A stretch of 64,000 nucleotides of DNA, taken from the IMG/VR virus record IMGVR_UViG_3300031111_000010, positions 1-64,000 of that record. One strand, 5' to 3'. The translations under genes were made by a program, and so were the position numbers. How positions within the stretch are numbered: the stretch's first letter is position 1; each line of letters opens with the position of its first letter. The DNA comes from a virus. Below, one piece after another: positions 2,671-60,964 of the stretch. The notes beneath the pieces were generated by a model. That model made no database searches. It was not told the DNA's origin and saw only the letters and a list, made by a program, of their open reading frames with translations.

Positions 2671-3093
2671 ATGTCTACATTTACTACACCGTTGAGAACT
2701 GAATTAGTTGGAAAGTATCAATTTAAATTAATTGAACCTTTCGAATACCATATCGGTGAGTATCCAGCACCAACACCTTTACATATAATCAAGGTGCCAG
2801 CAGGATATATCACCGATTTTGCGTCCATACCAAGAGTATTTTGGCCTATCGTTTCACCAGTTGATGAATATGCTAAAGCAGCAGTAATTCACGATTGGTT
2901 ACATGTCAGAGGATATTTCAGTAGAACTACAACAGATGATATATTCAATGAAGCTATGAAAGTACTCAACGTACCTGATTGGAAACGAAGAATTGTATAT
3001 AATGCCGTGAAGTATTTTAGTGGATATGCATGGAGAAGAAACAGAAAGAAATATGGTACTCATAAAATAGAGGTACATAACTATGAGATTTAA
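2671..3093 (+). CDS. DUF1353 family phage protein, 140 aa
   Basis: V-P-A-G-Y-I-T-D-F-A-S-I-P-R near residues 43-56 and A-A-V-I-H-D-W-L-H near 70-78 are the signature of the DUF1353 family of phage proteins, of uncertain role and often near structural genes. Late promoter 28 bases upstream and a GGAGG ribosome site. Its 3' end overlaps the next start by 11 bases. Confidence 0.85.
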   Translation: MSTFTTPLRTELVGKYQFKLIEPFEYHIGEYPAPTPLHIIKVPAGYITDFASIPRVFWPIVSPVDEYAKAAVIHDWLHVRGYFSRTTTDDIFNEAMKVLNVPDWKRRIVYNAVKYFSGYAWRRNRKKYGTHKIEVHNYEI

Positions 3094-3730
3094 AAATTAT
3101 TTGAAAGAAATAAATTATGTTGAGAGAGTAGATGAAATCGTATTACTACCAAAAGAGATTCATCCTAAAAAGACAGTAAAGGCATACAAACTATTCAGAA
3201 CAAAAGGAGGTAAAATCTATCCATTATATGTAAAGGCAAATGATGCGATACCAATTGGTAAATGGATTGAAGCTGAAATAGGAGAGATGTCACCAAGAGG
3301 AAAAGTCAAATCCAAATTAGGTGATTTAGCGTTTAGACCCGGATGGCATTCAGGTGATATGCCTATTGCTACTCATATTGGTGGTAAGAGTAAAGGAACA
3401 TCTCAAAAGAAACCTGATTATAGACCAGACAACCAAGTATGGGCTGAAGTGCTTGTACCTGCTGATGTTGATTGGCAAGAAGAAGCAAATCGTAGAGCTA
3501 AGAAAACCAAAGCAGGTAAGATCATTCCAAGAACAGCACATATCACAGATCAAATACCAAAAGGTGGATTCTATAAATATAAGACAAATGCTAATATGAC
3601 AGGATCATGGCTTATTAGTGGTGCTATTAAAGTAAAGAGAATTCTATCAGATGCCGAAGTTGAGAAATTAAATTTAGGTTTCGGTGTAGCTGATTTACCA
3701 AGACTGAGTAAACTACAAAAGGCAGCATAA
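3083..3730 (+). CDS. Probable head-packaged protein with N-terminal targeting leader, 215 aa
   Basis: Begins M-R-F-K-N-Y-L-K-E, the shared leader whose L-x-E end matches the T4 gp21 prohead-protease cleavage rule. The body contains W-H-S-G-D-M-P-I-A-T-H-I-G, a motif I associate with uncharacterised domains of phage polyvalent proteins, and several K-R-x-K clusters. Enzymatic role unknown. GAGGT ribosome site. It overlaps both neighbours. Inference: made late, packaged in the prohead, trimmed and possibly injected. Confidence 0.75.
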   Translation: MRFKNYLKEINYVERVDEIVLLPKEIHPKKTVKAYKLFRTKGGKIYPLYVKANDAIPIGKWIEAEIGEMSPRGKVKSKLGDLAFRPGWHSGDMPIATHIGGKSKGTSQKKPDYRPDNQVWAEVLVPADVDWQEEANRRAKKTKAGKIIPRTAHITDQIPKGGFYKYKTNANMTGSWLISGAIKVKRILSDAEVEKLNLGFGVADLPRLSKLQKAA

Positions 3731-4377
3731 TGAGATTTAAACAATATATACATGAAATGGCAATGCCTAGAGAACTTGATCTTAAAAAGACATATTATCA
3801 TGGTACGAGTAAAGACAAGTTTGGAGAGGGTATATTAAAGAAAGGTATAAATCCACCTGATCTTACAACCAAGAAGAAGAACAACCTAACACCAGTTGAA
3901 GGTATGGTATATATAACACCAAATTTAGAATATGCTTTGATCTATGCATTGGGTGCTAATATGATTGGATCGAAATCACTTCCTGATTTTATGACTAAGA
4001 AAGGTGAGGAAAATATGTATCTTTTCGTTATTGATGGAAAGCAATTAAAAGACATTCAGCCAGATGAAGATTCTATTGGTGAGATGATAATGAAGAAAAA
4101 GCCAAAATGGATATGGGAACTAGCAGATGCTGTATTGTCATATGATGTAATGGATAGAGTAATGGATGGTGAATATGAGTATTGGGCAAAAGCTGGTAAA
4201 ATATTATTGAAAAATATGACTGATGAAGAAAAATTAAAATTGATAGATGCTGGCGCACATATAGCTCATACAGGATCATTGAAACCAAAGGAAGCATGGA
4301 TATTACCAAAAGCAGAAAACCATAGATTGAATAAGAAAGGATCAAATTTCTTCAAAATAGCAAAGAGAATAAAATGA
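3730..4377 (+). CDS. ADP-ribosyltransferase-like protein with packaging leader, 215 aa
   Basis: After the leader M-R-F-K-Q-Y-I-H-E, residues 21-75 read Y-Y-H-G-T-S then G-I then V-Y-I-T-P-N-L-E-Y-A-L-I-Y-A. This is the pattern of ART/KptA-type NAD-using transferases (H at strand 1, Y-x-T/S strand, A-x-x-Y-A helix). T4 packages the ADP-ribosyltransferase Alt with its DNA, so a packaged ART-like effector fits the leader. Substrate unknown. I cannot place the catalytic Glu with confidence. The start overlaps the previous stop by one base. Confidence 0.65.
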   Translation: MRFKQYIHEMAMPRELDLKKTYYHGTSKDKFGEGILKKGINPPDLTTKKKNNLTPVEGMVYITPNLEYALIYALGANMIGSKSLPDFMTKKGEENMYLFVIDGKQLKDIQPDEDSIGEMIMKKKPKWIWELADAVLSYDVMDRVMDGEYEYWAKAGKILLKNMTDEEKLKLIDAGAHIAHTGSLKPKEAWILPKAENHRLNKKGSNFFKIAKRIK

Positions 4378-5033
4378 GATTACAAAAATATATAAATGAA
4401 GCATTAAAGGATACAGACGATTTTGGCGCAACAGGTAGGAAGTTTGAAGCTGCATTTATTAAAGCATTGAAGCAAATTGATGTAGAACATAAAGAGAATA
4501 GATATGCTGGTGCTGGATGGGATATTAAATCAGTTGGACCTAAATGGGTTCAACTGTTATTTGATAAGGAAATCAATATCAAGATATTCTCAGCTAAGTG
4601 GATGTTCGGCTCAACTGAATTAGCTACTATGCTTCCATGGTCAGAACCAGATGAGAAGTTCGATAAAGACAAAATGGAAATGAGAGTAAAACGATATCTC
4701 AATAAAAAGGGATTATCGGATATTACATTTCTCAAGCCAAGAACAGCAGAGATACAAAAAGAGATTATTCAAGCAGTAAAGAGTAAAGACATAGAATCAT
4801 TAGAGAAAGTAATGGTCAAGAAGAATTTTCAATTTGAGAAGTTGGGTAGAACATATGATGTGAGAATATTACAGAAGAAGGATGGCACCGTATCATCTAT
4901 TGCTATTGACAAGGGTGGTAAAGTTTTCATGCGTGGTGAGAAACCAAGAAAGATGGGTGGCTCAATGTTAGTAGCATTTAAAGCACCTACGAATAAACTA
5001 TCTAAAGTGAATAAGACGATAATCAAGAAATAG
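4374..5033 (+). CDS. Leader-bearing protein, possible nuclease fold, 219 aa
   Basis: Starts M-R-L-Q-K-Y-I-N-E-A. Residues 40-75 contain A-G-W-D-I-K-S and D-K-E-I-N-I-K-I, a D...(I)xIK arrangement that could be part of a PD-(D/E)XK nuclease core; this is a weak pattern call. Overlaps the upstream gene by four bases (ATGA). Its position in the packaged-protein operon suggests a virion-associated protein. Confidence 0.55.
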   Translation: MRLQKYINEALKDTDDFGATGRKFEAAFIKALKQIDVEHKENRYAGAGWDIKSVGPKWVQLLFDKEINIKIFSAKWMFGSTELATMLPWSEPDEKFDKDKMEMRVKRYLNKKGLSDITFLKPRTAEIQKEIIQAVKSKDIESLEKVMVKKNFQFEKLGRTYDVRILQKKDGTVSSIAIDKGGKVFMRGEKPRKMGGSMLVAFKAPTNKLSKVNKTIIKK

Positions 5034-5040
5034 AGGTAAT

Positions 5041-5241
5041 ATGAAATTTAAAAATTATTTAAACGAATCAATGAAAGTAAAAACTGAGAAGAACGAAACA
5101 GGACATGTTCATTATGCTGAAGTTGATGAAGATGGAAATGGTAATACTACATCCACATCCACAGGAGAAGACCATGTTCATAGAGTATTTGAATGGATAG
5201 TACAACCTGCCATGGGGCATTTACATAATTTGGAGTTATAA
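5041..5241 (+). CDS. Small His-rich leader-bearing protein, 66 aa
   Basis: Leader M-K-F-K-N-Y-L-N-E-S, then H-V-H-Y-A-E-V-D-E-D-G-N-G and later D-H-V-H-R and G-H-L-H. Three H-x-H pairs suggest metal binding. AGAGGTAAT ribosome site. No recognised family, though similar H-x-H small phage proteins exist. Confidence 0.7.
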   Translation: MKFKNYLNESMKVKTEKNETGHVHYAEVDEDGNGNTTSTSTGEDHVHRVFEWIVQPAMGHLHNLEL

Positions 5242-5998: not shown

Positions 5999-6961
5999 AT
6001 GAGATTTAGAAGATATATAAATGAAATGTCCTATGAAGAAAAGGATATTCCAAGAACATTCAGAGTAGTATTTGAAATTGATCGATATGATGAGAATGAA
6101 ATGTTAAAAAATATCAAGCAATTAGCAAGTATGAAATTTGAAGGCATGACAGGTATATCAGATAAACATGATATTGGTTTTCATTGGTTGGGTGTAGCCA
6201 GAGATGCCATGCTCATTATGAAAGGAAAGGAAGTAGTAAAATTAAATAAACTCTCACGATTTCTCTATGGTAATCCTAATTATTTTTTAAGTAACAAAAT
6301 GGCAATGGCTAAGAGATTATTTAATAAGAGTGGTGGAACATTTGGTGATTCAAACATTATCCAAAACATATTAGAATATGTATTTAAAGAATTAGGAAAA
6401 TTAAATTCTACTCTAAAACATGATATTGAATATACTGCTGCCTATCAATCATACTCTCATTTCGCACATAAGAAACAAGTAAATATCAACAGTTCAAAAG
6501 ACCTTGTTAAGTGGATAAGGAAAACTGGTAAAGAAGTAAAAGAAGAAGAAGAAAAGAGAGAATGGAAAAGTAGTGAAAGAATTAGAGTTGTTGATATGAT
6601 AGCTGAATTATCTAATGGTCAAATCGAAAAAGCTATATATGATGCATTCGATCAAATAGGAAAAATATATGGGGATGAAGGTGAATGGGTAGTAAAGGAT
6701 TCAACATTCAAAGTACCAAAGGGATCACACCTTTATATATTAGTCAATCAAAAAGAATATAAGAAGATGAAAGATTTAGAATTAAATAATCCTGAACAAT
6801 GGAAGATCATGCAATTTATGAATAGAGATGAAGTAGTAAAGAAATATGATTTTCTAATGAAGTCACTTAAGAAATATGGAGTATTTAAAAAATACAAGGT
6901 GAAGTTTGTTGATGGTCAAGAGTGGAAGAAAATACAAAGTATGCATTTAAGCAGGAAATAA
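5999..6961 (+). CDS. Large leader-bearing protein of unknown function, 320 aa
   Basis: Leader M-R-F-R-R-Y-I-N-E-M. The body is helical and charged, with a K/E-rich linker near 180-190 and a C-terminal alpha/beta part containing F-K-V-P-K-G-S-H-L-Y-I-L-V. That strand resembles the S-F-x-V-P-x-G-x-x-L-x-I type of ART folds but is not diagnostic. AAGGTGAGAAT ribosome site. Candidate injected effector. Confidence 0.65.
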   Translation: MRFRRYINEMSYEEKDIPRTFRVVFEIDRYDENEMLKNIKQLASMKFEGMTGISDKHDIGFHWLGVARDAMLIMKGKEVVKLNKLSRFLYGNPNYFLSNKMAMAKRLFNKSGGTFGDSNIIQNILEYVFKELGKLNSTLKHDIEYTAAYQSYSHFAHKKQVNINSSKDLVKWIRKTGKEVKEEEEKREWKSSERIRVVDMIAELSNGQIEKAIYDAFDQIGKIYGDEGEWVVKDSTFKVPKGSHLYILVNQKEYKKMKDLELNNPEQWKIMQFMNRDEVVKKYDFLMKSLKKYGVFKKYKVKFVDGQEWKKIQSMHLSRK

Positions 6962-7337: not shown

Positions 7338-7607
7338 ATGGATTTAATTGAAAAATATTTAGAAGAAGCAGAACCAATAATGCACTTTGGGAAATCTAAT
7401 TACACAACCAAAGGACAACAAACGAAAAACAGAAAAGATATAGATGTAAACATAATAGATACAGCTATAAGCGATCTTAAAAAAGCCAATAAGATATTGA
7501 AGTCTGCAAATTATGTTGATTTCAAGGTTCAATCTGAAGCAGGAAAACATTTAATTCAAGCGAAAAAAAAGATAGAATCACAAATAAAAGCTGCTAAGAT
7601 AAAATAA
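7338..7607 (+). CDS. Leader-bearing small protein, 89 aa
   Basis: ATG at 7338 follows AAGGAGAGAGAT. Begins M-D-L-I-E-K-Y-L-E-E-A, a variant of the packaging leader. The rest is lysine-rich and helical, ending in K-A-A-K-I-K. Possibly a small basic internal head protein that binds DNA; this is inference from charge and leader. Confidence 0.7.
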   Translation: MDLIEKYLEEAEPIMHFGKSNYTTKGQQTKNRKDIDVNIIDTAISDLKKANKILKSANYVDFKVQSEAGKHLIQAKKKIESQIKAAKIK

Positions 7608-8066: not shown

Positions 8067-8282
8067 ATGAATTTAATAGAGAAGTATTTAGGAGAAGCTA
8101 CACGATGTCCTGTTTGTGGACATCCATTAAATAGCAGATATCACAAAGAGAATTGTGAAGGTGGTGGTGAGAAGAAGCAAAAGAGAAAAGGCAAATATAA
8201 ACTACCTAAAATGCAGGGATATCAAGCAAGTAAATCTATGGGTGGACCCGGACACGGTATGTCACCAATGGGAAGAAGATAA
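8067..8282 (+). CDS. Leader-bearing zinc-finger protein, 71 aa
   Basis: M-N-L-I-E-K-Y-L-G-E-A leader, then C-P-V-C-G-H-P-L with a downstream H...C pair (residues 14-29), then a very basic K/R-rich stretch and a Gly/Met-rich tail. Looks like a small DNA-binding internal protein. AAGGAGAAGAC ribosome site, the same spacer as the previous gene. Confidence 0.7.
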   Translation: MNLIEKYLGEATRCPVCGHPLNSRYHKENCEGGGEKKQKRKGKYKLPKMQGYQASKSMGGPGHGMSPMGRR

Positions 8283-8293
8283 GGAGAAGTGAT

Positions 8294-8500
8294 ATGAGTG
8301 AATTAATAGATAAATATTTAGGAGAAGCATCTCTTGAAGAAATGAGCTATAAAAAGTTTGATAAAGAGATAAGTAGAGCAAAGAAAAACAAAACAAGATT
8401 GAAAAATTTAACATCTACTATTCATTCAATGGGTGATGGTGGAATGTTAAAACCTGATGAAGTAAAGAAACTTGTTGATAAAATCAAATCTTTAATGTGA
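8294..8500 (+). CDS. Leader-bearing small protein, 68 aa
   Basis: M-S-E-L-I-D-K-Y-L-G-E-A leader and an all-helical lysine-rich body. AAGGAGAAGTGAT precedes the ATG. Third gene in a row with the Y-L-x-E-A type leader. A late promoter follows immediately. Confidence 0.7.
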   Translation: MSELIDKYLGEASLEEMSYKKFDKEISRAKKNKTRLKNLTSTIHSMGDGGMLKPDEVKKLVDKIKSLM

Positions 8501-13406: not shown

Positions 13407-14120
13407 ATGCGATTTACAAAATACCTAAAAGAAGAAATTAAAATCAAAGGTGGACAATCAGCCGGGAAACTTGAATTAGACAAAACACCAGTAGAAAAGG
13501 CTAGAGCATTTGCAGAGAAAAAAGGTTTTGATTTAGATAAAGAAATACCAAACTTTGATGAGAACTATAAAAAAGCACAGCAACTAGCAAAATTGGGTAA
13601 GACCAAAAGAAAAGACATGCCTGTAATCAATGATGATGATGTTAAGAAATTCCAAAAGAGATTAGAAAACGGAACACTTGATATCAATAAGCCATTTGCT
13701 AAAGACCCTGATGTTGGTAGTAATCCATTTCCAGAAGGACTAAAAGGATTAGCAGCAAAGAAATGGTTAGAAAAAGGTTTGAAAGATGGATCAAAAACTG
13801 ATGATATAATAGACGTTGATATTACCAAAGTAGCAGTAAAAGATTTAAAGCCTATCCAAAGACAGATATATTATGATAAATCCATGGGAGCAACTATAGA
13901 AAATGGAGTAAAAACATCATTAAACTTTGTAACTAACAAATCATTTTTCATTATTAGTGGTGATAACTATATAATCGACGGTCACCACAGATATCTAACA
14001 GCACTAATACTTGATCCAAAAGCAAAAGTAAATGCACTTAAAATCAATCTACCAATTAAAAAACTATTACCAATGGCAACAGCCTATGGAGATGCTATCG
14101 GTAACAAGAGAAATGCATAA
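13407..14120 (+). CDS. Leader-bearing ParB-like domain protein, 237 aa
   Basis: Leader M-R-F-T-K-Y-L-K-E-E. Residues 140-230 contain V-K-D-L-K-P-I-Q-R and I-I-D-G-H-H-R-Y-L-T-A, the ParB/sulfiredoxin-like nuclease signature with the D-G-H-H-R motif. Family members are CTPase switches, nucleases or kinases, so the activity is unclear. The N-terminal 130 residues are lysine-rich and linker-like. It has a late promoter and packaging leader, hence probably a virion-delivered protein. It sits alone among accessory genes. Confidence 0.78.
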   Translation: MRFTKYLKEEIKIKGGQSAGKLELDKTPVEKARAFAEKKGFDLDKEIPNFDENYKKAQQLAKLGKTKRKDMPVINDDDVKKFQKRLENGTLDINKPFAKDPDVGSNPFPEGLKGLAAKKWLEKGLKDGSKTDDIIDVDITKVAVKDLKPIQRQIYYDKSMGATIENGVKTSLNFVTNKSFFIISGDNYIIDGHHRYLTALILDPKAKVNALKINLPIKKLLPMATAYGDAIGNKRNA

Positions 14121-22176: not shown

Positions 22177-22233
22177 ATTTATATCCTTATATATACCTTT
22201 TTATATACTTTTTTATTTTTCAGAAAGTGAGTA

Positions 22234-23330: not shown

Positions 23331-23353
23331 ACCACAACTATCTTTCGCTATTC

Positions 23354-26268: not shown

Positions 26269-26333
26269 TTTATTCTACCTTTATATTTTCTTGAAATTCT
26301 CCATCCTCTACTGCCAGTTCCATACGATTGTTC

Positions 26334-27055: not shown

Positions 27056-27067
27056 TTCTTCTCCATA

Positions 27068-42414: not shown

Positions 42415-42464
42415 ATTTTCCTCCATTTTCAGATATTAATCTGAGCTTTTCTATCCTTCATATA

Positions 42465-43407: not shown

Positions 43408-43415
43408 TATTTATA
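43408..43415 (-). promoter_or_regulatory. T4-type late promoter TATAAATA
   Basis: Exact octamer on the minus strand overlapping the stop of the upstream adhesin gene; drives the sheath-lectin fusion. Confidence 0.7.
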
Positions 43416-45867: not shown

Positions 45868-45872
45868 AATCT

Positions 45873-45880
45873 TATTTATA
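45873..45880 (-). promoter_or_regulatory. Late promoter TATAAATA abutting start codon
   Basis: Only five bases (AGATT) separate the octamer from the ATG at 45867, so T4-type initiation would give a leaderless mRNA. Confidence 0.7.
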
Positions 45881-45948
45881 TATACCGTAAAATATTAACT
45901 TGTGCTTAAATTACTTCCTTTATCAATAGAATACTAAACTGCTATATC

Positions 45949-48900
45949 TTAAAGTGTAAGAAGATCGCCCATAATATTATGTGATACCGCTTTAGCATAA
46001 GCATCTGAACGTCCAGCAAGAGACAGTCTGAATTCAGACATAAGCCACTCATGTTTGTCTCCATAGACAGGACGATACCCATACACTTGAAAAAGAACGG
46101 AATCGGTGTCAGTACTTGATTCTAATAATACTTCTCCATTATTATATATAGTTAGTGTACTTGATGTTCTCTTAACTATAAAATGAGTCCACTCACCAAC
46201 AACAATATCAGCATCCTCGTAATTTGTGCTGCTGCCCCCACTATCAAGATCAACATAAATCTTTACATTTGCGTGAAAGGCTATTCCTTGGTAAGAATTT
46301 CCAGAAGCATTTCTGCATATACTGGCAACAAACGTGGGAGGGAGTTCTTGTCTGTTATATAAAAAGTCTAAAGTAAAATCTCCTGATATAGAAAAGTCTT
46401 CTGATATATAATCATTAACTCCATCAAAGTGGATATGAGCATATCCATCTTCTCTTGAAAAAACTGGTGTTCCGTGAAGTGTTCCATCATGAGCATTTAC
46501 AGTAGAATCTGTGGCATCTTCTACTAAATGCCAAACCGCTTCATAGTCCTCATCCCATACACCTTGAGCAGCAATTTCTCCTGTCTCCCCTATATAACCT
46601 GTTATTCCGTCACATGAGTTAATTGTGAAGTTGTCAAGTGTTACATCAACAACCCCATTATTCTCTTGCTCAAAAAATAATTGAACAGTGAGATCATTTG
46701 AATTACTCGTTACCAAACTTATTCCATCTGTATTACCTGAACCCCATACCCACTCATCAGTCACCCCCCAATAATAGGCAGTTATCAATCCACTACTATT
46801 TCTAGTAAGTCTTAACTTACCAGTAGTATGAGCAGTCCACAAAGAGGTTTCAGTTCTATCTGTTCCATATACTCTATATTCTTGATCCCCATCAGAACTT
46901 TTCTGCATGTTAATCAAACCAATTTGGGAACCAGCATCCAATAATCTGAATATAGGTAAGTGATGAAAACCATCATCTGGAGTTGTGAGAGAAATAATAT
47001 CAAAATCAATTTGAATATCAAATGCTCCAGACAGAATAAAATTACTATCAATTTGAGTTTTGTGATTTGCATCATCTCCAAGAGAATTATATTCCAATTT
47101 ATTATTTTGAATACTCAGATAATCAGAACCAACAGAAACGGTTTTTGTCCATTTGGCAGAGTCAGGAGAGCTACCATCTTCTCCTGTGAAATCATCAAAT
47201 ACTTCAGGAGAAGTTATTACCCGTTCGTAATTATTTTCTTCACCAAAAACAACCTTGATGGTAGTGTCTTCACTACTGGAAGCTGACGGAATTCTCGCAT
47301 GAAGAATACCAAGATCATTTGTTGGGTTCCATTCTTCTACTTCTGTGTAACATTCAACATCATCTACAGTGATATGGAGATACTTCCAATCTGTAGTCTC
47401 TGTAGCAGATACAATAGTAGATGGAAGAACTATTCTTACCGGAAAGTTGGTAAGAGTGGCATCAATTTTACTACTATCTATTGTGTAATATAGTGGTGGT
47501 GTAGTAGAACTTGAGCTTGAACTTGATTGACTTGAACTACTTCCTTCTGTTAATAGTATATTTTTCAATACTGCATTTGTAGCTTTTAACCATGCAGCAG
47601 ATCGAGTAATAGAAGATATCCGAACTTCTCCAATTTGCCCATTAAACCAAATGGACGATGGATTATCCCTATTATCTTTTCCAATTTTTAGTGAATAATC
47701 ATTTTGCAGACTTCCTGATCCTAAAGTATCATCATTATTTTTTGTCACTGTATCTTCTATTCCAGAAACAAATAGCTTCAGAATTTCACTCGCACCCGAT
47801 CCATCGTAAGTATGAGCAAGATAATAAAATTCATCATCTTCTAAAATGATGTCTGCGGTATAATCTTTTACATCTGATGAACCTTCTCTTAAGTAAACCC
47901 TGAACTGCTGTGAGTCAGTGAATTCAAAATTTATTGCTCCGACTGAAGAATTGCGATAGTTGCCAATGATCACACCCCTGTCGTTATCTCTTTCACCAAG
48001 AACAAATGCTTCAAATGAATGTTTTTCATCTCCTTGTAAATCCAGAACATTCACATCAGTGTCGGTTCCCATATAATCGTTACTGCCATCAAAATCTATT
48101 GCTTTACCAAATACTCCATCTACTAAATCACCAGAAGTCATACTACCATAAGTAGTACAATGTCTCTCATGGGAAGTAGAATCAAGGACCACCTTTGAAG
48201 CATCCGTTGGGTCTTGATTCATATGGTAAACCATTTCAAAACCAGAATTCCATACATTCTGTGCAGCAGATGTTCCAGTAGAACCAATATAAGAATTATT
48301 ACTTCCATATTCTAATTTAAGATTGATATCATGTCCACTTGGAATAAATGGAACTTTAGTCCATATTGTTCCAGATGTTTCCCAACTTTCAACTTCAGTA
48401 AATAATTCAGTACCACCAGATGTTACATGTAAATTCTCATATGAATTAGCACTTGTAAAATCAGATGGAAGTATTATACCTACTGGAAAATCTATTAAGT
48501 TCTCATCTATATTATTACTATCAATGGTGTAATATAATGGTGGTGTAGTACTACTTGAACTTGAACTTGAAAGAGAACTACTACTACTTGAACTTGAACT
48601 TGAAAGAGAACTTGAAGAACTTGAACTTGAAAGAGAACTTGAAGAACTTGAGCTTGAAGAACTTACTGATGGACAAATAACAGTACCACTATTGACAATA
48701 AAATTATCAATATCACATCTATTATTATCACCTGCATTATAGTCATACATTAAGAATCTAACAAAACAATCATCTGTAGTCATTGTTTTACTACCAGCAG
48801 AAGACCAACTACCAGAATTAGCATTATCATAATATACTGATACTGTTGATCCACTTCTTGTTATTCTTAATCTACCATAATCATTTGTTCTTCCATAAGT

Positions 48901-50793: not shown

Positions 50794-50798
50794 AATCT

Positions 50799-50806
50799 TA
50801 TTTATC
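50799..50806 (-). promoter_or_regulatory. Variant late promoter GATAAATA abutting start codon
   Basis: Same A-A-A-T-A-A-G-A-T-T-A-T-G context as the adhesin A promoter, with G in place of the first T. Weaker or decayed. Confidence 0.5.
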
Positions 50807-53168
50807 CTGAACTTGAACTTGAACTTGAACTACTTCCTTCTGTTAATAGTATATTTTTCAATACTGCATTTGTAGCTTTTAACCATGCAGCAGATCGGGC
50901 AATATTAGAAATACGAACTTCCTCTACTTCTCCTGCTCTATATCCAATTGTTGAGTCTGGTGTTCCACCAATACCAATGGTATCAATACCTGTAGGCCAA
51001 GCATCTCCACCAGTATCCTCTTGCTCTGTTCCTCCATTAGTATATAATTTTCTACTCGTAGAAGTAACTAACGCTGAAGCTAAATAAGCAAATTCTCCTG
51101 CATCAAGACTTACTGTTCCATTTAAAAGAGTAGTACCAGTCGAGTAAAAATTTAATCTTCCAATGTTTCCATACATATTAAGTAATACCATTTGATCTGG
51201 TTCACTAACATCTCCAATTCCAACTGACGGATTGTTATTTGATGCTGCTGTAATAGTAGCACGACCAGCACATTCTAAGGTAGCAGGGTAATCTGTTAAA
51301 CCAGAAACACTTGCAGTAACAATATCGTTGTTACCATCAAAATCTATTGCTTTACCAAATACTCCATCTATCAAATCATCTGAAGTCATTGATCCATTAA
51401 ATGATCCATTATGTAAATTAGAAGTACTATCTAATAATGTTCCACCAGTTGGATTTTGACTCATATGATATACAGCTACAAAGTTCTCATCCCATACTGT
51501 CTGTGCAGCACTTGTACCCGTAGAACCAATATAAGAATTATTACTATTATATTCTAATGTCAGTACTGTATCTCTGTTTGCTGGTATCCAAGGAACTTTA
51601 GTCCATATTGTTCCAGATGTTTCCCATGTATCTACTTCAGTATAAAGTTCATTACCACCTGATACAGTAACATGTAAATTCTCATATGAATTAGCACTTG
51701 TAAAATCAGATGGAAGTATTATACCTACTGGAAAATCTATTAAGTTCTCATCAATCTTACTACTATCTATTGTGTAATATAGTGGTGGTGTAGTACTACT
51801 TGAACTTGAACTTGAAGTAGAAGAACTTGAACTACTTCCTTCTGTTAATAGTATATTTTTCAATACTGCATTTGTAGCTTTTAACCATGCTGATGATCTT
51901 TGTATATTAGAAACTCTTACTTCTCCTATTTGACAATTTAGATAATCAACAGAGAAATAATTATCTGGTACTTTCGCTAATAATGGAGGACTAAAATCAG
52001 CAGTTCCATTAGGAGCAGAGATAGAATCTGTGTCATCATTTTTGTATATATTAAAAGTACCATTTACTTCATATGATGCAGCAAAGTATTCAAATACATC
52101 AAGATTGACAGGACTAATAGTTAAAATTACTTCATTACCATCTACACCAAATCTATAATCCCATGAACTACCATTATTGAAATTATAAATTCTAAGTCTA
52201 TCTGAAAAATCTGATCTATCGGAAACAAAAATAGGAGCATAATTATTACTACCACCTAAAACATCTATTAAAGTAAATACTTCAACTGTTCCTATGGTAT
52301 TATCCATTACATCTGGCATACTTATATAATCATTACTACCATCAAAATCTATTGCTTTACCAAATACTCCATCTACTAAATCACCAGAAGTCATAGAACC
52401 ATGGGTATCACCATGATTTCCATTAACTGTGGAATCTAAAATTGTATCTGTTCCATCGGTTGGGTCTTGACTCATATGATATACAGCTACAAAGTTCTCA
52501 TTCCATACATTCTGTGCAGCAACTTCTCCTGTTTGACTTATATTCCAAGGAACAATAACATCACAAGAATTTATAGCAAAATTATCAAAGGTATAAACTA
52601 ATGGTGTTGCTGAAGTAGAATTACGATATGCCATAAATCCTACATAAACATCGTCTTCTATCCAAGTATGTGCTGAACCTATTTGTGACCATGAACCATC
52701 TTCTTCATTTTTATAATAAGCTGATACTTGATTTCCTACTCGTTTAATTCTAAATTTATTAGTATAAGGATTCGATTTGCTACTTATATTAACTTCATCC
52801 CAAGAATCATTACTACCAGCATCATCATATCTGAAATAAGCATAGGGGGTTCCCGATCTATTTATTAGTCCTACAAAACCCCATTCAGAAGTATTATTGT
52901 CTTTATTCGGAGAAATATAAACTCCACCTTGTTGAATACTTACTACTTGACCTGTAACAGTTACAAAGTCAAACTCTATTTCAAAATCACCTTTAATTAT
53001 TCTATTGAGAGTTTTATAATGATTTCCGCTATTACCTGATGAAATGGTCATTTGTGCTTCATTATCATCTATAACAGTAGAACCTGTTCCACTATTACCA
53101 GCAGCATCATACCACCATTCTTTTGAGAAATCATCTCCATTTGTTCCTGTAAAATCATCAATTATCAT
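50802..53168 (-). CDS. Adhesin C, unanchored second half, 788 aa
   Basis: Begins directly in a ConA-like domain (I-I-D-D-F-T-G-T-N-G-D-D-F) with no tube-like anchor. Order: ConA (1-205), LamG (215-420), short poly-Ser, DUF2341 (438-540), LamG (545-765), poly-Ser end. Its ATG overlaps the stop of the 624-aa gene (ATGA) behind AAAGGA. In adhesin B the same junction (Y-E-R-V-I-T-S-P-E-V-F-D-D-F-T-G) is continuous, so this looks like a gene split. Confidence 0.78.
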   Translation of the reverse strand: MIIDDFTGTNGDDFSKEWWYDAAGNSGTGSTVIDDNEAQMTISSGNSGNHYKTLNRIIKGDFEIEFDFVTVTGQVVSIQQGGVYISPNKDNNTSEWGFVGLINRSGTPYAYFRYDDAGSNDSWDEVNISSKSNPYTNKFRIKRVGNQVSAYYKNEEDGSWSQIGSAHTWIEDDVYVGFMAYRNSTSATPLVYTFDNFAINSCDVIVPWNISQTGEVAAQNVWNENFVAVYHMSQDPTDGTDTILDSTVNGNHGDTHGSMTSGDLVDGVFGKAIDFDGSNDYISMPDVMDNTIGTVEVFTLIDVLGGSNNYAPIFVSDRSDFSDRLRIYNFNNGSSWDYRFGVDGNEVILTISPVNLDVFEYFAASYEVNGTFNIYKNDDTDSISAPNGTADFSPPLLAKVPDNYFSVDYLNCQIGEVRVSNIQRSSAWLKATNAVLKNILLTEGSSSSSSTSSSSSSSTTPPLYYTIDSSKIDENLIDFPVGIILPSDFTSANSYENLHVTVSGGNELYTEVDTWETSGTIWTKVPWIPANRDTVLTLEYNSNNSYIGSTGTSAAQTVWDENFVAVYHMSQNPTGGTLLDSTSNLHNGSFNGSMTSDDLIDGVFGKAIDFDGNNDIVTASVSGLTDYPATLECAGRATITAASNNNPSVGIGDVSEPDQMVLLNMYGNIGRLNFYSTGTTLLNGTVSLDAGEFAYLASALVTSTSRKLYTNGGTEQEDTGGDAWPTGIDTIGIGGTPDSTIGYRAGEVEEVRISNIARSAAWLKATNAVLKNILLTEGSSSSSSSSSG
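50833..50890 (-). repeat. Module-border repeat, copy 2
   Basis: Same 50-60 bp border element as at 47541, at the 3' end of adhesin C. Confidence 0.75.
51836..51893 (-). repeat. Module-border repeat, copy 3
   Basis: Same border element inside adhesin C, between its two module series. Confidence 0.75.
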
Positions 53169-55039
53169 TCGGTTATTTCCTTTGAATAATTATTGCTACC
53201 ATATTCCAATTTCAATACTGTATCACTTGCAGATGGAATAAATGGTACTTTAGTCCAAATTACTGCTCTATCATTAGAAGGTTCCCATACATCTACTTCA
53301 GTATAAAGTTCTGTATTACCACCTGACACTGTAACATGTAGATTTTGCCATCCAGAAGTAGGTTGACTTGAAATAAATCCTGTACCTGAAACATTAATAC
53401 CTACTGGAAAATTTGTTAAGTTCTCATCAATTTTACTACTATCTATTGTATAGTAAAGTGTTGATATAGTAGAAGTAGAAGCAGAACTTACACTTGAACT
53501 TGAAGATTCTGAGCTTGAACTACTCACTGAACTTGAAGATTCTGAGCTTGAACTACTTACTGAACTTGAAGATTCTGAGCTTGAACTTGAATAACTTGAA
53601 CTTGAATAACTTGAACTTGAACTTGAGCTTGAAAGAGAACTTGAAGATTCACTTGAGCTTGAACTTGAGCTTGAACTTGAAAGAGAACTTGAAGATTCAC
53701 TTGAGCTTGAACTTGAAAGAGAACTTGAAGATTCACTTGAGCTTGAACTTGAAAGAGAACTTGAAGATTCACTTGAGCTTGATTGACTTGAGCTTGAAAT
53801 ATTATAATATTCTATTTCACAAGGATAAATTAAAACACCACCACCTTCTGTTGTTGATGTTGCTCCCCACTTATTATCACCACCATAATAACGACTTGTA
53901 TCATTTCTTAATTTAAACCATCTTGCAGTCTGTGGTGTATCGAAGTCTACTCTAAATGCAAATTCATATCCAGTTCCTAAAACTGAAGGTGAATGAATTG
54001 GTGGTTTAATCCATGTATCAATCCATTCCCATGTTATTCCATCATCTGATTTATATGCACCAACTACTCCACTATCATTATCAACCCATGCATCATAAAT
54101 ACGACTTGATGATGATGTTCTAAACCAGAAAATAATACCATTGATTGTCATTGGTTCTGTTGTAGCCACCCAAAATGACGTATTATAACCAACATAATCA
54201 TTATCTGCTACTGCATATATATTACCATCTATTAGTCCGGGATATGATGCTGAGTTTTCTGTTACAAGAGGATTAGGATTCCATCCACTCCATGCACCTA
54301 CAAGATACGTCGAAGAAGAACTTGATTTTGATGAACTTGATTTTGATGAACTTGAGCTTGAACTTGAAAGAGAACTTGAAGATTCACTTGAGCTTGAACT
54401 TGAGCTTGAAGAACTCAGGCTTGAACTTGAGCTTGAAGAACTCAGGCTTGAACTTGATGATGATGTCCAAGATTTAGAAGAAGAAGATCGAGAAGAAGAA
54501 CTAAATTCAGCAGTCCAAGCTGTACTTCTCACATAGAAATAATCATATTCAAAGGTGACCATACTTTCTAATACAATATCACCTTCTCTTTGTGACATTC
54601 CAATTTCTGCTAACTGAGTAGGCCAAATATCAACAAACACTATTTCCATAACAGGTTTTTTATAGTTGTTCGTAATTATCATTGATGCATCAACTGAATA
54701 TTCTTTATGATATTCAGCTATTTTATCACAATTATTATTGATATAACTCATCCACCTGAATAATAAACTCCAATTATCCAATCGTGAATCAACAACAAAG
54801 TTAACCATCCAACTTTCAAATTCTAATGGGTTTAAGTCATACTTGACTTTATTACCTTGCCAACTTATCTCATTAACCCCTATATTCAAGGATGGAATAA
54901 CAGCAGAGAAGATATTCATTACGAAAGGATTGTTAGACGCAATACTACTTTCAGTTGGTATCAGGGGAAATACCAACTGAAAATTTGTAGGTGTGGCCTT
55001 GTCTATATTATTAAGGTTGGATGTATTGCATACTATCAT
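53165..55039 (-). CDS. Tube-fold-anchored adhesin D (first half), 624 aa
   Basis: Residues 1-179: tail-tube-like domain (V-D-I-W-P-T-Q-L-A-E-I-G-M-S-Q, F-E-Y-D-Y-F-Y-V). 180-245: poly-Ser. About 246-425: discoidin-like (F5/8 C-type) domain with P-G-L-I-D-G-N and A-R-W-F-K-L-R. 430-525: long poly-Ser with E/Y/L interruptions. 530-624: DUF2341, cut short at the stop. Adhesin C continues the architecture. Start is leaderless-type. Confidence 0.8.
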   Translation of the reverse strand: MIVCNTSNLNNIDKATPTNFQLVFPLIPTESSIASNNPFVMNIFSAVIPSLNIGVNEISWQGNKVKYDLNPLEFESWMVNFVVDSRLDNWSLLFRWMSYINNNCDKIAEYHKEYSVDASMIITNNYKKPVMEIVFVDIWPTQLAEIGMSQREGDIVLESMVTFEYDYFYVRSTAWTAEFSSSSRSSSSKSWTSSSSSSLSSSSSSSSLSSSSSSSSSSESSSSLSSSSSSSSKSSSSKSSSSSTYLVGAWSGWNPNPLVTENSASYPGLIDGNIYAVADNDYVGYNTSFWVATTEPMTINGIIFWFRTSSSSRIYDAWVDNDSGVVGAYKSDDGITWEWIDTWIKPPIHSPSVLGTGYEFAFRVDFDTPQTARWFKLRNDTSRYYGGDNKWGATSTTEGGGVLIYPCEIEYYNISSSSQSSSSESSSSLSSSSSSESSSSLSSSSSSESSSSLSSSSSSSSSSESSSSLSSSSSSSSYSSSSYSSSSSESSSSVSSSSSESSSSVSSSSSESSSSSVSSASTSTISTLYYTIDSSKIDENLTNFPVGINVSGTGFISSQPTSGWQNLHVTVSGGNTELYTEVDVWEPSNDRAVIWTKVPFIPSASDTVLKLEYGSNNYSKEITE

Positions 55040-55076: not shown

Positions 55077-55934
55077 TTACGGTGTGATTTTTCTCACTCC
55101 ATTAGGAATATATGAACCACTTGTACTTCCATATGGTTCAAATAAATTATATTTTATCATCGCATCATCTACTGTACCACCTGATGGTATACTTCCTTTA
55201 ATTTCATATGTAATACCTCTTGATGCTGGTGTTCCTGATGCACCAGAAGTAAAGGTTGATCCAGTATCACCTTGATTAACATATGTTCTAAAGGATTGAG
55301 CATCAGTAAAATAACTACCATAAATTTTTTGAATCAAACCAACATCTGATGATGGTTTAAAGAACCAAGTCTGAACTTCAAAATCCAATGTATAGTTAAT
55401 TACTCTATACTCAAGGTCTGCCATTTCATGTGATATTTCTGGTGTAGCTGATCTAAAGATAATCTTAGTATCAAATGCTATATCAAGATCATCTATATAA
55501 ATTCTCACAAAGATATGTGGACAAAAGAATGGTAAGATTTGTTCCATTATCTGATCTATGTCAGTCATATGCAATGCCCATATATTCATTGTGAAGGTAA
55601 GGTTATATGGACATGGATGGAGAAATTGTGATACTGATCCTTGTACTATATTATCACAGTTAGCAGTAAAGGCATGAAAACTGTTTACCTTTCTATCAGC
55701 AGCATAATCGATAGCACTAATATATGCTGTGATCATAGGCAACATTTCATCATCTTTTCTCTCATCAAACCAGTAGTATACTTTTTCTTTCACAGAATGT
55801 TTGATAGGAACTTTTATCCATCTATCAATAGTTCTTCCATCATCTGAATATCTTGCAATTTTTATATCGTTAAAAGCGTCAAAAAATTGTATAATCGTTT
55901 TTCTGAACACATTAAAAAAGAAATATGTTTTCAT
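55077..55934 (-). CDS. Tail terminator/completion protein, T4 gp15-like, 285 aa
   Basis: I-K-V-P-I-K-H-S-V-K-E-K (residues 42-53), M-E-Q-I-L-P-F-F-C-P-H and Y-T-L-D-F-E-V-Q-T-W-F-F-K-P parallel T4 gp15 (I-R-V-P-I-T-Y-A-S-K-E, V-E-Q-I-L-P-Y-F-Q-P-H, W-S-L-T-F-E-V-N-G-W-M-Y-P). Caps the tail for joining to the neck. Gly/Ser-rich C-terminal extension. ATGA overlap upstream. Confidence 0.88.
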   Translation of the reverse strand: MKTYFFFNVFRKTIIQFFDAFNDIKIARYSDDGRTIDRWIKVPIKHSVKEKVYYWFDERKDDEMLPMITAYISAIDYAADRKVNSFHAFTANCDNIVQGSVSQFLHPCPYNLTFTMNIWALHMTDIDQIMEQILPFFCPHIFVRIYIDDLDIAFDTKIIFRSATPEISHEMADLEYRVINYTLDFEVQTWFFKPSSDVGLIQKIYGSYFTDAQSFRTYVNQGDTGSTFTSGASGTPASRGITYEIKGSIPSGGTVDDAMIKYNLFEPYGSTSGSYIPNGVRKITP

Positions 55935-56446
55935 CTAACTGTTCTCTCCACTATGACTTCAACGCCACGTTTAGTTTTAAATCCTTTTTTTCTCAAGATT
56001 GTTATAGGAACAATAACAGCAGTTCCTTTTAAATTTTTATTAGAAACACTTCCTATTGTTCCACCTTGTTTATAATCTTGATGTAAAGCTATTGCTAAAT
56101 TTATATTTGTACTTTTACTTTTTATTGTATATTCGATATTATTAGGTGGTATATTATTTTTATCTACACCTTTCTTCTTGGCAGTATTATTAGCAACAGC
56201 CTGAATGTCTTTCTTTAATGTACTTCCCATTTTACTCACAAAAGCATTCATTACAAAATCTAATTCATCTGCCGTAATAGGTGGTTTATTTTCTGATCTG
56301 TTTACTCTAAAGTCTCTCTTTCCCATATGACTTGAGAATTCAAATGCAGTCAATCCCATTGGTTTCAGTTTAGCAAACCATTTATTCTCAAATGCTTTTA
56401 TTTCTCCCATTGAAACGTCTTCTTTTAAATAATTTTTAAATCTCAT
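55931..56446 (-). CDS. Leader-bearing paralog of the 17.6-kb protein, 171 aa
   Basis: M-R-F-K-N-Y-L-K-E-D leader, chosen as start because GGGAGAATAT precedes it (56446). The body matches the 17625-18053 product. Basic C-terminus. Encoded between gp14- and gp15-like genes, so likely a virion form of a protein also made inside the cell. Confidence 0.75.
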   Translation of the reverse strand: MRFKNYLKEDVSMGEIKAFENKWFAKLKPMGLTAFEFSSHMGKRDFRVNRSENKPPITADELDFVMNAFVSKMGSTLKKDIQAVANNTAKKKGVDKNNIPPNNIEYTIKSKSTNINLAIALHQDYKQGGTIGSVSNKNLKGTAVIVPITILRKKGFKTKRGVEVIVERTVR

Positions 56447-56540: not shown

Positions 56541-57188
56541 CTAAAATCCATAAACACTACTATCATAACTATCTCCATAATCAAATATATCATCACTTTC
56601 ATCCTCTATCTCATCGTTATCACCAAATGCTGTCAGTGGTTCAGAAGTAGTATCCAAAATTCTATTTGGATCAGTCGGTTCTCTGGTGAATCTTGAAATT
56701 TCTCTTGCAGAGTCAGACTCATCTGAATATCTGTAAGGTTTAAGAACAAAACCCCATATCATCTTTTTTAGCTGGAATATCTTTTCTTCCTCATGAACAT
56801 CAGCTATTTCATATGCTCTATCATTCCATACCGTAATAATAGCATCTCCGGGTTTAGGATGATAACCTGCTGATACATCTCTTGAGAATGTAAATTTAGG
56901 TAGACTTGTAAAAGATATTTCTTCTTCTGAATTGATACCAAATCCAGTAGTCAATGTAGGTTCTTCTGTAGGTTCATATATAAGTTTAGTTTCAAATGGT
57001 CCTTCATATTTAGACTGAACACTTTCACCATATAGATAATCCCTATGAATTTCTTTTCTTATATAATACTTACAATAGATACCTGATATATCGGTAAATT
57101 CAGATATTACTGATTGGAATAGTTCATGCTCTACATTGTCTTGTAGATGATGCATATCCCATAAAGGTTTTGTTGTATTGATACCCAT
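56541..57188 (-). CDS. Neck protein, T4 gp14-like, 215 aa
   Basis: G-I-Y-C-K-Y-Y-I-R-K-E with D-Y-L-Y-G-E (residues 36-55) and the strand run K-P-G-D-A-I-I-T-V-W-N-D-R-A-Y-E-I follow T4 gp14 (Y-Y-V-P-R-E, D-L-I-F-G-E, K-E-G-D-L-I-Y). Acidic C-terminus. Head-completion ring joining head and tail. Confidence 0.82.
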   Translation of the reverse strand: MGINTTKPLWDMHHLQDNVEHELFQSVISEFTDISGIYCKYYIRKEIHRDYLYGESVQSKYEGPFETKLIYEPTEEPTLTTGFGINSEEEISFTSLPKFTFSRDVSAGYHPKPGDAIITVWNDRAYEIADVHEEEKIFQLKKMIWGFVLKPYRYSDESDSAREISRFTREPTDPNRILDTTSEPLTAFGDNDEIEDESDDIFDYGDSYDSSVYGF

Positions 57189-57473
57189 TTATTTTCCTCT
57201 TTTTTCTATTGGTAACCATACATAATTAACTGAAGATTTATAATTTTTATGGTTTTCATCTATTATGTTAAATGTTAAATATACATGGTTTTCAAGTATT
57301 TCCCATATAAATTCAAACTTCATATACTTCTCTTGAACTTTGTGCTTCTTAGCGAGAACCTTTCTCGCTAAAGCAATATCATTTTCTTTTATATTGTATT
57401 TTTTAGATAGCTTTTTATTCAGGTTATCATTATACTGATTTATACTTTCTTTTATATATTGTTTTAATCTCAT
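57189..57473 (-). CDS. Leader-bearing small protein, 94 aa
   Basis: M-R-L-K-Q-Y-I-K-E-S leader; lysine-rich helical middle, beta end. Four-base overlap with its upstream neighbour and directly adjacent to the gp14-like gene. Probable internal head protein. Confidence 0.7.
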   Translation of the reverse strand: MRLKQYIKESINQYNDNLNKKLSKKYNIKENDIALARKVLAKKHKVQEKYMKFEFIWEILENHVYLTFNIIDENHKNYKSSVNYVWLPIEKRGK

Positions 57474-57853
57474 CCTATTAATTTTTCTTGTGTTTCCATT
57501 ATTATAATTAATGCTTCTTCAAGTCTTTTTACTCTTGCTTTCAGTTTAGTGATTTCCTGTGATTCATTAAGCGGTTCTTTTATACTTGTACTACCACCTC
57601 TTGCTTTTTCTTTTAATGCATTCATTCTCTTTTCCATTGCAGCATCAATAGCACTCCAATCTGTATGATCTTCTTCTAATCCATCATGTGAAGTTTCGTT
57701 TACAGGATCACCTAATGGTGCTTCTGGTTTTGAACCACCATCAACACCACCTTCTGCTTGAGCATACATCTTGTTTGTAATCTGTTGCATATCAATCTTT
57801 TTAAATGCACTTCCATCTTTTAACATTTTCTCATACGCTGTTATTTCTGACAT
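57470..57853 (-). CDS. Acidic coiled-coil protein, 127 aa
   Basis: Disordered Gly/Glu-rich centre (G-G-V-D-G-G-S-K-P-E) and C-terminal coiled coil (L-K-A-R-V-K-R-L-E-E-A-L-I-I-I-M). Could be a neck or scaffold accessory. No family recognised. Confidence 0.6.
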   Translation of the reverse strand: MSEITAYEKMLKDGSAFKKIDMQQITNKMYAQAEGGVDGGSKPEAPLGDPVNETSHDGLEEDHTDWSAIDAAMEKRMNALKEKARGGSTSIKEPLNESQEITKLKARVKRLEEALIIIMETQEKLIG

Positions 57854-57862
57854 ATTATCTCC

Positions 57863-58201
57863 TTATTTTGTTTTATCCTCTGCTTCTTCTTCTCCTTCAT
57901 CTTCATATTCATCCCATTGAGGATCAACCTTTTCAAGTATGTATTCAAACTCACCTACATGAACTTTTTCCTCATTAGCAATATCTTGAAGGATTTCTTT
58001 TAAATCTTTGTCAGTTGCTTGTGGTATCATCTGTTCATAAAGATTAGCTGCATCCAGTTCAGCTACCATAGCCAATCTTGCAATAGCAGCATCCAATAAT
58101 TTTCCTTTTTTACTCGCTACTAATTCATTAAATTGAACAAACAATTCATTCAACGCTTTTGGTTTTTTACTTTCTGTTAAATAATTACTTAGTCTACTCA
58201 T
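57863..58201 (-). CDS. Ferritin-like (encapsulin-cargo type) protein with packaging leader, 112 aa
   Basis: Leader M-S-R-L-S-N-Y-L-T-E-S. Residues 45-92 (A-E-L-D-A-A-N-L-Y-E-Q-M then I-A-N-E-E-K-V-H-V-G-E-F) carry the E...E-E-x-x-H metal ligands of rubrerythrin/encapsulated-ferritin-like proteins, which dimerise to form a di-iron site. Acidic tail like encapsulated ferritins. Inference: packaged in the head, perhaps to protect DNA from oxidation. Confidence 0.8.
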   Translation of the reverse strand: MSRLSNYLTESKKPKALNELFVQFNELVASKKGKLLDAAIARLAMVAELDAANLYEQMIPQATDKDLKEILQDIANEEKVHVGEFEYILEKVDPQWDEYEDEGEEEAEDKTK

Positions 58202-58209
58202 ATTTTCAC

Positions 58210-59091
58210 CTATCCTAATAAAATACCATAACCTTCATGGCTTTCTTCTAATCTTAATCTCTCATCTAATGTTTCTTTTTCTTGTATACCTTCTTGTATT
58301 AGCTGATCACCATCTAAGGCAATACCAATATTACCAATGGAATTAAATTGAGCGAATTTACTTCTTATTCTACCCAACATAATCTTACACTCTGCCAATG
58401 CATAATCGAATATCCAATCAGAAGTATAAAAATTAGTATCGGAACTTCCTGCTCTTAGACCAGTTCTTTTCCATGTAGACTGAGAATTATTAGATTCCAT
58501 ATTAGCATAATGACTTCCTTCCATCATATACGATCTGACTAATAAAAATCCGGGCGAGTCATATGTTACTACTTGACCATTCTCATCTGTTACTTCTAAT
58601 GTGTTTCCTGATGGTGGTGCTGGTTGTACTTCTAATTGATTTGTGTATCGATGATATTTATAATTGTAGATTGAAGGTGTATATCGATCTAATGTCTTTA
58701 GCCAATCAATAGCAATATGATAACTTATAATAGAACTACCATATCCTCTATTAGCCCACAACAGACCATCGTATGCTCCCCTTGAATACATAAAATTCTC
58801 AACAGTAAACAAGGTGTTAATTCCATATCCTCTACCATTATCGTCATAATCTACAATTTCAGTAACACCAACAGGAAGATCATAAAAATTTTGATTAGCT
58901 AAAAGTAATACAGTAAAATAGGTATCTACAGTAGCATTACCTGCACCCCATTTTACCCATTTGTCTTTAGCATAATCTATTGCATCATAAATCTGTATAT
59001 CTTCCAGTTCGACTTTGACAACAGGCGCACCTAATCTTCTCTTTATTTTCTCAGAAAGTTCTGCCTTACTGAGTCTGATATCTAATGCCAT
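58210..59091 (-). CDS. Neck/head-completion protein, T4 gp13-like, 293 aa
   Basis: K-R-R-L-G-A-P-V-V-K-V-E-L-E-D-I-Q-I-Y-D-A-I-D-Y-A-K (residues 16-41) and Q-N-F-Y-D-L-P-V-G-V-T-E-I are typical of T4-type gp13 neck proteins. Length close to T4 gp13 (309). Placed between terminase and gp14/15 genes as in T4-like clusters. Confidence 0.78.
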   Translation of the reverse strand: MALDIRLSKAELSEKIKRRLGAPVVKVELEDIQIYDAIDYAKDKWVKWGAGNATVDTYFTVLLLANQNFYDLPVGVTEIVDYDDNGRGYGINTLFTVENFMYSRGAYDGLLWANRGYGSSIISYHIAIDWLKTLDRYTPSIYNYKYHRYTNQLEVQPAPPSGNTLEVTDENGQVVTYDSPGFLLVRSYMMEGSHYANMESNNSQSTWKRTGLRAGSSDTNFYTSDWIFDYALAECKIMLGRIRSKFAQFNSIGNIGIALDGDQLIQEGIQEKETLDERLRLEESHEGYGILLG

Positions 59092-59401: not shown

Positions 59402-60964
59402 TTAGTAATCAAAAACATTTGAATCTGTTAACCATGACCAATCATCTACATCATCTTCAATATCAGATAAGATACCCCAAGCATCATTTTCTTTTTCATC
59501 CTTTTTAAACTCCCAATCTTCTGACATTACGTTCATTTCAAAGATAAACAATCCCCAAAACATAGCATCAACAAGATCATCAGGTTTATCTTTACCATAG
59601 AATTTAGATTCATCTTCAATATAGGAACTTAACTGTTCGATAGTTTCTTTATCATTTATTTTAACAGAACCATCTTCTATGAGTTTTTTCATAAGAAGAA
59701 CAGCTTTAGGTTTATTATTTCTATTTGATCTGATACCAAGATTTATTGCTTTCGCACCAGTGTTGACCAATCCTTCATTCTCATATGTCCACCATAACTG
59801 ACCAATAACAGCAGACCCCTCACCATTATTCTCACACATAACATAAGCACTATTATAATAAATACTAAGTCTATGAATGATTTGTGAAAATTGATAAACA
59901 TCTGTCATATTATCTTGAAATACTGCTACTTGTTCCATGTTGATTGGCATTCTTGAATTTATTTTGAAAATTTGAATACAAGAATCATGCTCACCAGTAC
60001 CCTTGGCAGGATCAACACCCATAACATATACAGCACCTTCTTTCGGTTTCTCCCAAACTCTTAATCTATCTTTAAGATCATAGAATTCAGGTTCAACATG
60101 AGTATTTAATAAAGTTCTCAATACTTCTGGACTGATAACGGTATTTGTAGAACCAAGAAACTTACAACCAAACTCTTGATTAAATCCATGGATACCAAGA
60201 TTTTTAATTTGTTCTCTTGCCCATGCATTATCTCTCCCCGGTACTCTATCCCAAAGTACTTTTTGAGCTACAAATGAATTAGCATCTTCTTTATTAGGAT
60301 TAACAGCACCCATCCAAATTCTATGAAAGATATTGAACATACCATTTGGTGTTGAAATAATAATAATCTTTGATTCTGTTGATGATGAAATGGTAGGATA
60401 GTTTGAAGACCAGAAATCTTCTGCGTTGTTTTTAGGTACGAATGCAAACTCATCACAGATAACGATGTTCATAGGCCAACCTCTAAAGGCATCCTGAGTG
60501 GTAGCTGAGATGATTAGCTTAGTGCCATTATCGAAAGTGATAGACGTTTTAGCGTACTCTGTGACCCCCGGCTTGAGCCAAGGTGGTAGACCTTCATACA
60601 TACGCTTCATGCCATCTAGAATACGTTTAGCAGATGATTCCTTATTGGATACCATACCAATGTTCTTATCTGCATTAAAGATAGCATACCAAAGAGCATA
60701 GGCAGCAACGATTGTTGTTTTACCACTCTGTCTTGCCCATAATCCTACAAAAAATCTGTTATTAGCTAGTAGTTCAAGAGTCTCATTCTGATAATCTCTT
60801 GGTTCAAATAATACTTCTCCATGATCTAATGTTACAATTTTCACATAGTTTTGTACGAAATAATGAATATCATCACGACATTTCACTATTTCCTCAACCA
60901 TATCTTGAGTATATTCCATCTCCTGATTTGGTCTTTTTACATAATCATCATAACGTATTGCCAT
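59402..60964 (-). CDS. Terminase large subunit, T4 gp17-like, 520 aa
   Basis: ATPase: Walker A W-A-R-Q-S-G-K-T-T (residues 76-84), Walker B I-V-I-C-D-E-F-A, and I-S-T-P-N-G (motif III). RNase H-fold nuclease: G-V-D-P-A-K-G-T-G-E-H-D, C-E-N-N-G and D-D-L-V-D-A. Powers DNA packaging and cuts concatemers. No intein or interruption. No small-terminase gene seen nearby. Own late promoter. Confidence 0.95.
   Translation of the reverse strand: MAIRYDDYVKRPNQEMEYTQDMVEEIVKCRDDIHYFVQNYVKIVTLDHGEVLFEPRDYQNETLELLANNRFFVGLWARQSGKTTIVAAYALWYAIFNADKNIGMVSNKESSAKRILDGMKRMYEGLPPWLKPGVTEYAKTSITFDNGTKLIISATTQDAFRGWPMNIVICDEFAFVPKNNAEDFWSSNYPTISSSTESKIIIISTPNGMFNIFHRIWMGAVNPNKEDANSFVAQKVLWDRVPGRDNAWAREQIKNLGIHGFNQEFGCKFLGSTNTVISPEVLRTLLNTHVEPEFYDLKDRLRVWEKPKEGAVYVMGVDPAKGTGEHDSCIQIFKINSRMPINMEQVAVFQDNMTDVYQFSQIIHRLSIYYNSAYVMCENNGEGSAVIGQLWWTYENEGLVNTGAKAINLGIRSNRNNKPKAVLLMKKLIEDGSVKINDKETIEQLSSYIEDESKFYGKDKPDDLVDAMFWGLFIFEMNVMSEDWEFKKDEKENDAWGILSDIEDDVDDWSWLTDSNVFDY

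Follow-up and report, generated by a model that had tools for sequence, protein, structure and literature searches.

An uncultured T4-like virus of bacteria probably carries a ferritin inside its capsid, as judged by analogy with phage T4. The gene lies in a 64,000-nucleotide stretch (the window) of an 81-kb virus record, whose 17 kb beyond the window were analysed as L009, and it encodes a half-ferritin that opens with ten residues in the register of the T4 capsid targeting sequence. Taken as a whole, we consider it likely that the leader loads the protein, that it is cut after Glu10, and that the ferritin is retained in the head with a di-iron site, probably oxidising and holding Fe(II). With the ferritin, a known packaging system would gain a new type of cargo, within a wider pattern across phages. 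Searches of open-access literature on phage ferritin and capsid targeting turned up nothing relevant, and no published or cultured example was found. If a phage packs ferritin in its head, the partnership of shell and ferritin would be seen on the virus side, the joint inheritance of shell and cargo would become testable, iron chemistry would join the known contents of virions, and the idea of iron in phage particles would have a concrete gene behind it.

The ferritin gene and its predicted metal site

The gene and its principal residues are located as follows.

57863..58201, minus strand: EncFtn-like half-ferritin, 112 aa (profile, PDB, homologue and model evidence)
58172..58201, minus strand: leader MSRLSNYLTE, predicted gp21-type capsid targeting sequence, predicted cut after E10 (T4 IPII/IPIII register)
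58058..58060, minus strand: codon of ligand E48 (EncFtn E32; invariant in 40 homologues, residue from the literature)
58037..58039, minus strand: codon of Y55 (EncFtn Y39; invariant)
57968..57970, minus strand: codon of ligand E78 (EncFtn E62; invariant)
57959..57961, minus strand: codon of ligand H81 (EncFtn H65; invariant)

A real EncFtn-like ferritin is encoded here. Its ATG is preceded by the ribosome-binding-like sequence AGGATAGGTG, 8 nt separate the ORF from the upstream neck gene, and the codon differences from the closest relative are 26 synonymous and 3 non-synonymous; purifying selection acts on the gene. The product scores 29.7 bits against PF22277 EncFtn-like (curated Pfam cut-off 27) and 27.6 against PF02915 Rubrerythrin (cut-off 22.8), although the full four-helix bundle of the latter, with two ExxH halves in one chain, is absent, the 112 residues amounting to one half. 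Among solved structures the closest is the ferritin domain that Pyrococcus furiosus fuses to its encapsulin (5n5e, E 9.7e-15), followed by 2e0z (1e-13), and EncC, EncB and Rhodospirillum rubrum EncFtn are also matched. The coding motif EEKVHVGEFEY occurs once within the window, with 0 occurrences expected. No homologue was detected by tblastn against 50,697 GenBank phages, and a PHROG search returned weak matches only, no PHROG naming the protein. A ferritin-like protein with an E...E-E-x-x-H di-metal pattern had been proposed at this ORF from the letters alone, and both ORF and family are borne out.

The iron ligands of R. rubrum EncFtn are E32, E62 and H65, together with Tyr39 (PMC5012862), and the spacing of E48, Y55, E78 and H81 in the phage protein is exactly the same. 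It thus carries the pattern E-x6-Y ... E-x2-H with an E-to-E spacing of 30. Lack of conservation at the ligands, which that reading had named as evidence against itself, is not what the homologues display: E48, Y55, E78 and H81 are all conserved, and E48, A51, Y55, E77, E78 and H81 are invariant across 40 homologues, the other 39 of which share 28-97% identity with the window ferritin. The entry-site acids E31 and E34 of R. rubrum EncFtn are replaced by A47 and D50. An AlphaFold monomer model built with the 40 sequences (pLDDT 89, core about 98) is a two-helix half-ferritin hairpin with a disordered leader; it takes the place of an earlier 8-sequence model of low quality (pLDDT 75). Against 5n5e the model gives Z 11.2 and 2.2 A over 88 residues, with a TM of 0.79 to the target, and structure-based alignments give 42-49% identity to the P. 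furiosus ferritin domain. The sequence match outweighs the Z score as evidence, because helical bundles reach middling Z by chance.

Ferritins are among the best-known encapsulin cargo. The encapsulated ferritins (P. furiosus 5n5e/2e0z, R. rubrum 5da5, Myxococcus EncB/EncC) share the half-ferritin fold and ligand set with the phage protein and are associated with an HK97-fold shell, as the phage ferritin would also be. In contrast, the latter is phage-encoded, has a predicted cleavable N-terminal T4-type tag, would sit in a DNA-filled capsid, and has no encapsulin on its contig: PF04454 was not found on the 81-kb record, which is possibly a fragment, and the C-terminus EEEAEDKTK contains no encapsulin targeting peptide by eye. 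The nearest cellular relatives, mostly at 40-55% identity, are mostly stand-alone EncFtn-like proteins of about 94 aa from archaea, CPR and Nitrospirota. These have the acidic C-terminal tail pattern of the phage ferritin, but they are non-phage, lack such a leader and mostly do not lie beside a shell-sized gene; among the cellular loci, 1 of 80 resembles an encapsulin-length fusion (L103, 350 aa). The parallel with encapsulin cargo drawn by the sequence-only reading is weaker than it was put: the sequence family is common to both, but the closest cellular kin mostly stand alone, the contig has no encapsulin gene and the tag is a T4-type propeptide.

A probable T4-type leader on many proteins

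T4 IPII and IPIII both start with MKTYQEFIAE (T4 record), and MSRLSNYLTE aligns with it without gaps in the same register. In the T4 leader residues 4 and 7 serve targeting, residues 8 and 10 serve processing, with cleavage by the protease on the far side of a Glu (PMC9026906). The ferritin has hydrophobic or aromatic residues at 4 and 7, an aliphatic residue at 8 and Glu at 10, and when the whole protein was shuffled, 0.13% of trials matched this pattern. The pattern M..[FL]..Y[LIM].E is kept in every homologue situated between gp13-like and gp14-like genes, though the residues vary. The same contig encodes a gp21-family prohead protease (PF03420 Peptidase_S77, 1.1e-30), a Gp23 capsid protein (PF07068, 8.7e-92) whose propeptide terminates at a conserved LENQHNFLME (LME) site, a T4_CASP scaffold and a Portal_T4 protein. 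On this sequence pattern the leader is very probably a T4-type head tag, and the head-packaging role first proposed for Y-L-T-E gains a known counterpart and a gp21-type protease on the contig. T4 and this phage have in common the gp21-family protease, the gp23 capsid and one leader on unrelated small proteins, the ferritin sharing with IPII and IPIII a like-patterned N-terminal leader of ten residues; T4, in contrast, has no ferritin among its internal head proteins (IPI, IPII, IPIII, Alt).

From the family, the ligands, the leader match, the protease and capsid genes and the recurrence of the gene, all read from sequence, we infer packaging, cleavage, an oligomer and ferroxidase activity, and for packaging the support by analogy and pattern is good. 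The leader would attach the ferritin to the prohead core, and the gp21-type S77 protease would cut it after Glu10. The mature head would retain the protein alongside the DNA, with which it may be ejected. Paired subunits, in head or host, would each contribute E48, E78 and H81 to a di-iron ferroxidase site, and would most likely oxidise and hold Fe(II) and so curb damage by iron to DNA, both in the virion and during entry. This protective role is the weakest step and a guess.

The neighbours of the ferritin and the other leader-tagged genes in the window, the latter recognised by the leader pattern, are as follows.

59402..60964, minus strand: large terminase gp17 (PF03237, E 1.6e-21)
58210..59091, minus strand: gp13-like neck/head-tail adaptor, upstream neighbour, without leader (phrog_211, E 2.7e-21)
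57470..57853, minus strand: small coiled-coil protein, second-type N-terminus ITAYEKML (from sequence)
57189..57473, minus strand: leader-tagged small protein, MRLKQYIKE
56541..57188, minus strand: gp14-like neck/head closure, without leader (phrog_679, E 2.5e-14; PF11649 just below cut-off)
55931..56446, minus strand: leader-tagged protein, MRFKNYLKE
55077..55934, minus strand: gp15-like tail sheath stabiliser (PF16724, E 3.4e-43)
3083..3730, plus strand: leader-tagged protein, MRFKNYLKE
3730..4377, plus strand: leader-tagged protein, MRFKQYIHE
4374..5033, plus strand: leader-tagged protein, MRLQKYINE
5041..5241, plus strand: leader-tagged protein, MKFKNYLNE
5999..6961, plus strand: leader-tagged protein, MRFRRYINE
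7338..7607, plus strand: leader-tagged protein, MDLIEKYLEE
8067..8282, plus strand: leader-tagged protein, MNLIEKYLGE
8294..8500, plus strand: leader-tagged protein, MSELIDKYLGE
13407..14120, plus strand: leader-tagged protein, MRFTKYLKE

The leader stands on 15 ORFs of the contig (0.57 expected), one or two of which look spurious, and even on this 81-kb fragment the tagged repertoire is far larger than that of T4. In the wider T4-like set 105 distinct leader proteins were counted against about 3 expected, on 64 unrelated body families that include a DnaJ, a zeta/AAA kinase, a nucleotidase and an ATP-grasp enzyme. The tag also reveals a large predicted set of head-packed proteins in uncultured T4-like phages. 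The product of 3730..4377 has no Pfam match, and its YHGTSKDKF motif suggests, by eye, an ADP-ribosyltransferase-like fold. Within the T4-like set no member of the large capsid, scaffold, protease, portal, terminase, neck and tail clusters has the leader, and 41 kb of a cyanophage did not show the pattern. Most T4-like loci gave no significant result in a per-locus test of the leader, the null pool having contained those leaders.

A second leader type, IQEAYxxML, occurs on genes between portal and protease (the gp21 core region). Several bodies have the first type in one phage and the second in another, and the ferritin is one of them, with type 2 in L022-L025; in L038 its N-terminus is MRLQLFLEN and it is fused to another tagged body. 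These phages may have a third leader type too: at L013:5374-6244 three adjacent small ORFs have a common N-terminus, MPTMNEFLDKAL.

In their mature form the tagged proteins are basic, with a median pI of 9.4 versus 5.2 in other conserved proteins (p 2e-22, a value that is too strong, as related proteins were counted though not independent), and T4 IPII/IPIII are alike at 9.6. The ferritin itself is acidic (pI about 4.4), whereas T4-like internal proteins are mostly basic, and therefore metal storage fits it better than DNA binding. The leader might instead direct proteins to some phage structure other than the head interior, since the tagged proteins are such diverse enzymes and large phages possess other sorting systems. 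We give this little probability: the register is that of a proven T4 head signal, an S77 protease is present, the mature tagged proteins are basic, and leaders are exchanged with genes at the portal/protease/scaffold locus.

Distribution among T4-like loci and attachment in unrelated phages

Eleven contigs (the window, L010-L017, L019 and L020) have the ferritin with a leader at one neck position, 0-2 small genes downstream of the gp13-like neck gene, and in L022-L025 and L038 it immediately precedes the gp15-like gene, so the search of T4-like neck clusters that had been suggested does find it there. It is an accessory, cargo-type gene, because the neck locus of L057, with a neck protein of 88% identity, lacks it, as do the other neck loci examined, some of which are incomplete. 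Both Gp23 and S77 are present in only 4 of the 20 ferritin-bearing records other than the window, records that may be fragments. In a tree of 72 columns, 23 phage ferritin sequences fall in one group (support 83/86), a grouping that an alignment so short makes suggestive only.

The position between gp13-like and gp14-like neck genes, and the fusion of the domain to portals in other phages, would also suit a structural head or neck component in which metal merely holds an oligomer together. That is a distinctly improbable account given the accessory presence of the gene, the invariance of the ferroxidase ligands in all 40 homologues, and the placement elsewhere in the cluster in L022-L025 and L038.

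In a related clade (L018, L026, L028, L030) the ferritin lies outside the head module, beside an RNR-like gene, and lacks a recognised leader. This clade, the acidity, the accessory status and the A47/D50 change all count against the reading of a packaged ferroxidase, and the clade in particular favours a late cytosolic ferritin, an auxiliary gene handling iron or peroxide, whose leader-like N-terminus would be no packaging signal. Such a ferritin seems unlikely to us, in that the leader pattern is kept despite residue change in all T4-like homologues flanked by gp13-like and gp14-like genes, 64 unrelated bodies share it, and the ferritin has exchanged it for another leader of the core region. 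Packaging in the head remains the preferred reading.

Three unrelated large phages have a ferritin whose N-terminal tag recurs on unrelated neighbouring proteins: MNPRKAFEQALAK in L032, MDNKKIASELLRIAK in L036, where it is found on 12 ORFs in 78 kb, and MKNWYKTAQ in L055. These three alone stood out clearly among non-T4 phages in the per-locus test; the shared leader of L050 reached p 0.001, but the matched proteins appear unrelated by eye and it was rejected. Elsewhere attachment is by fusion, in contrast to the leader of the window ferritin: an EncFtn-like domain with intact ligands is joined to the portal protein in L040 and L044 and to a DUF2213 head-maturation protease in L043. Encapsulins are regarded as domesticated phage capsids (PMC8346489). 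That EncFtn-type ferritins are recurrent capsid-internal cargo of unrelated tailed phages, by their own tag or by portal or protease fusion, and that the encapsulin partnership of shell and ferritin descends from such heads, is a long shot at present.

Some further proteins of these phages can be listed. The N-terminus MDNKKVASELLKIAKSL stands on twelve ORFs of L036/G004 (L247-L250), an apparent tag in a non-T4 phage, and M..WYKxA on five ORFs of L055/G006 (L251-L252), where it likewise looks like a tag peculiar to the phage. A single ORF at L040:5980-8637 comprises a phage portal (PF06381), an EncFtn-like domain and a topoisomerase IB, and the long phage proteins at L035:6855-9632 and L042:6180-8249 combine NUDIX with a rubrerythrin/EncFtn-like domain.

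Other repeated peptides in the window

Ten small unrelated ORFs on the minus strand at 20695-27376 have a common C-terminal tail, F[IL]xE[SKG][DE][MF]x[LI], in which the codons differ and the peptide is constant. In most cases the stop codon overlaps the start that follows (ATGA), and the tail may serve as a common peptide tag or simply result from translational coupling. Large proteins at 43411-55039 (minus strand) contain long serine-rich repeats, copies of a similar N-terminal domain and lectin-like stretches, and by eye are probably tail or host-binding proteins. At 42499-43377 (minus strand), adjoining the full tail sheath gene at 40576-42426, a shortened second tail sheath N-terminus is followed by serine-rich sequence.
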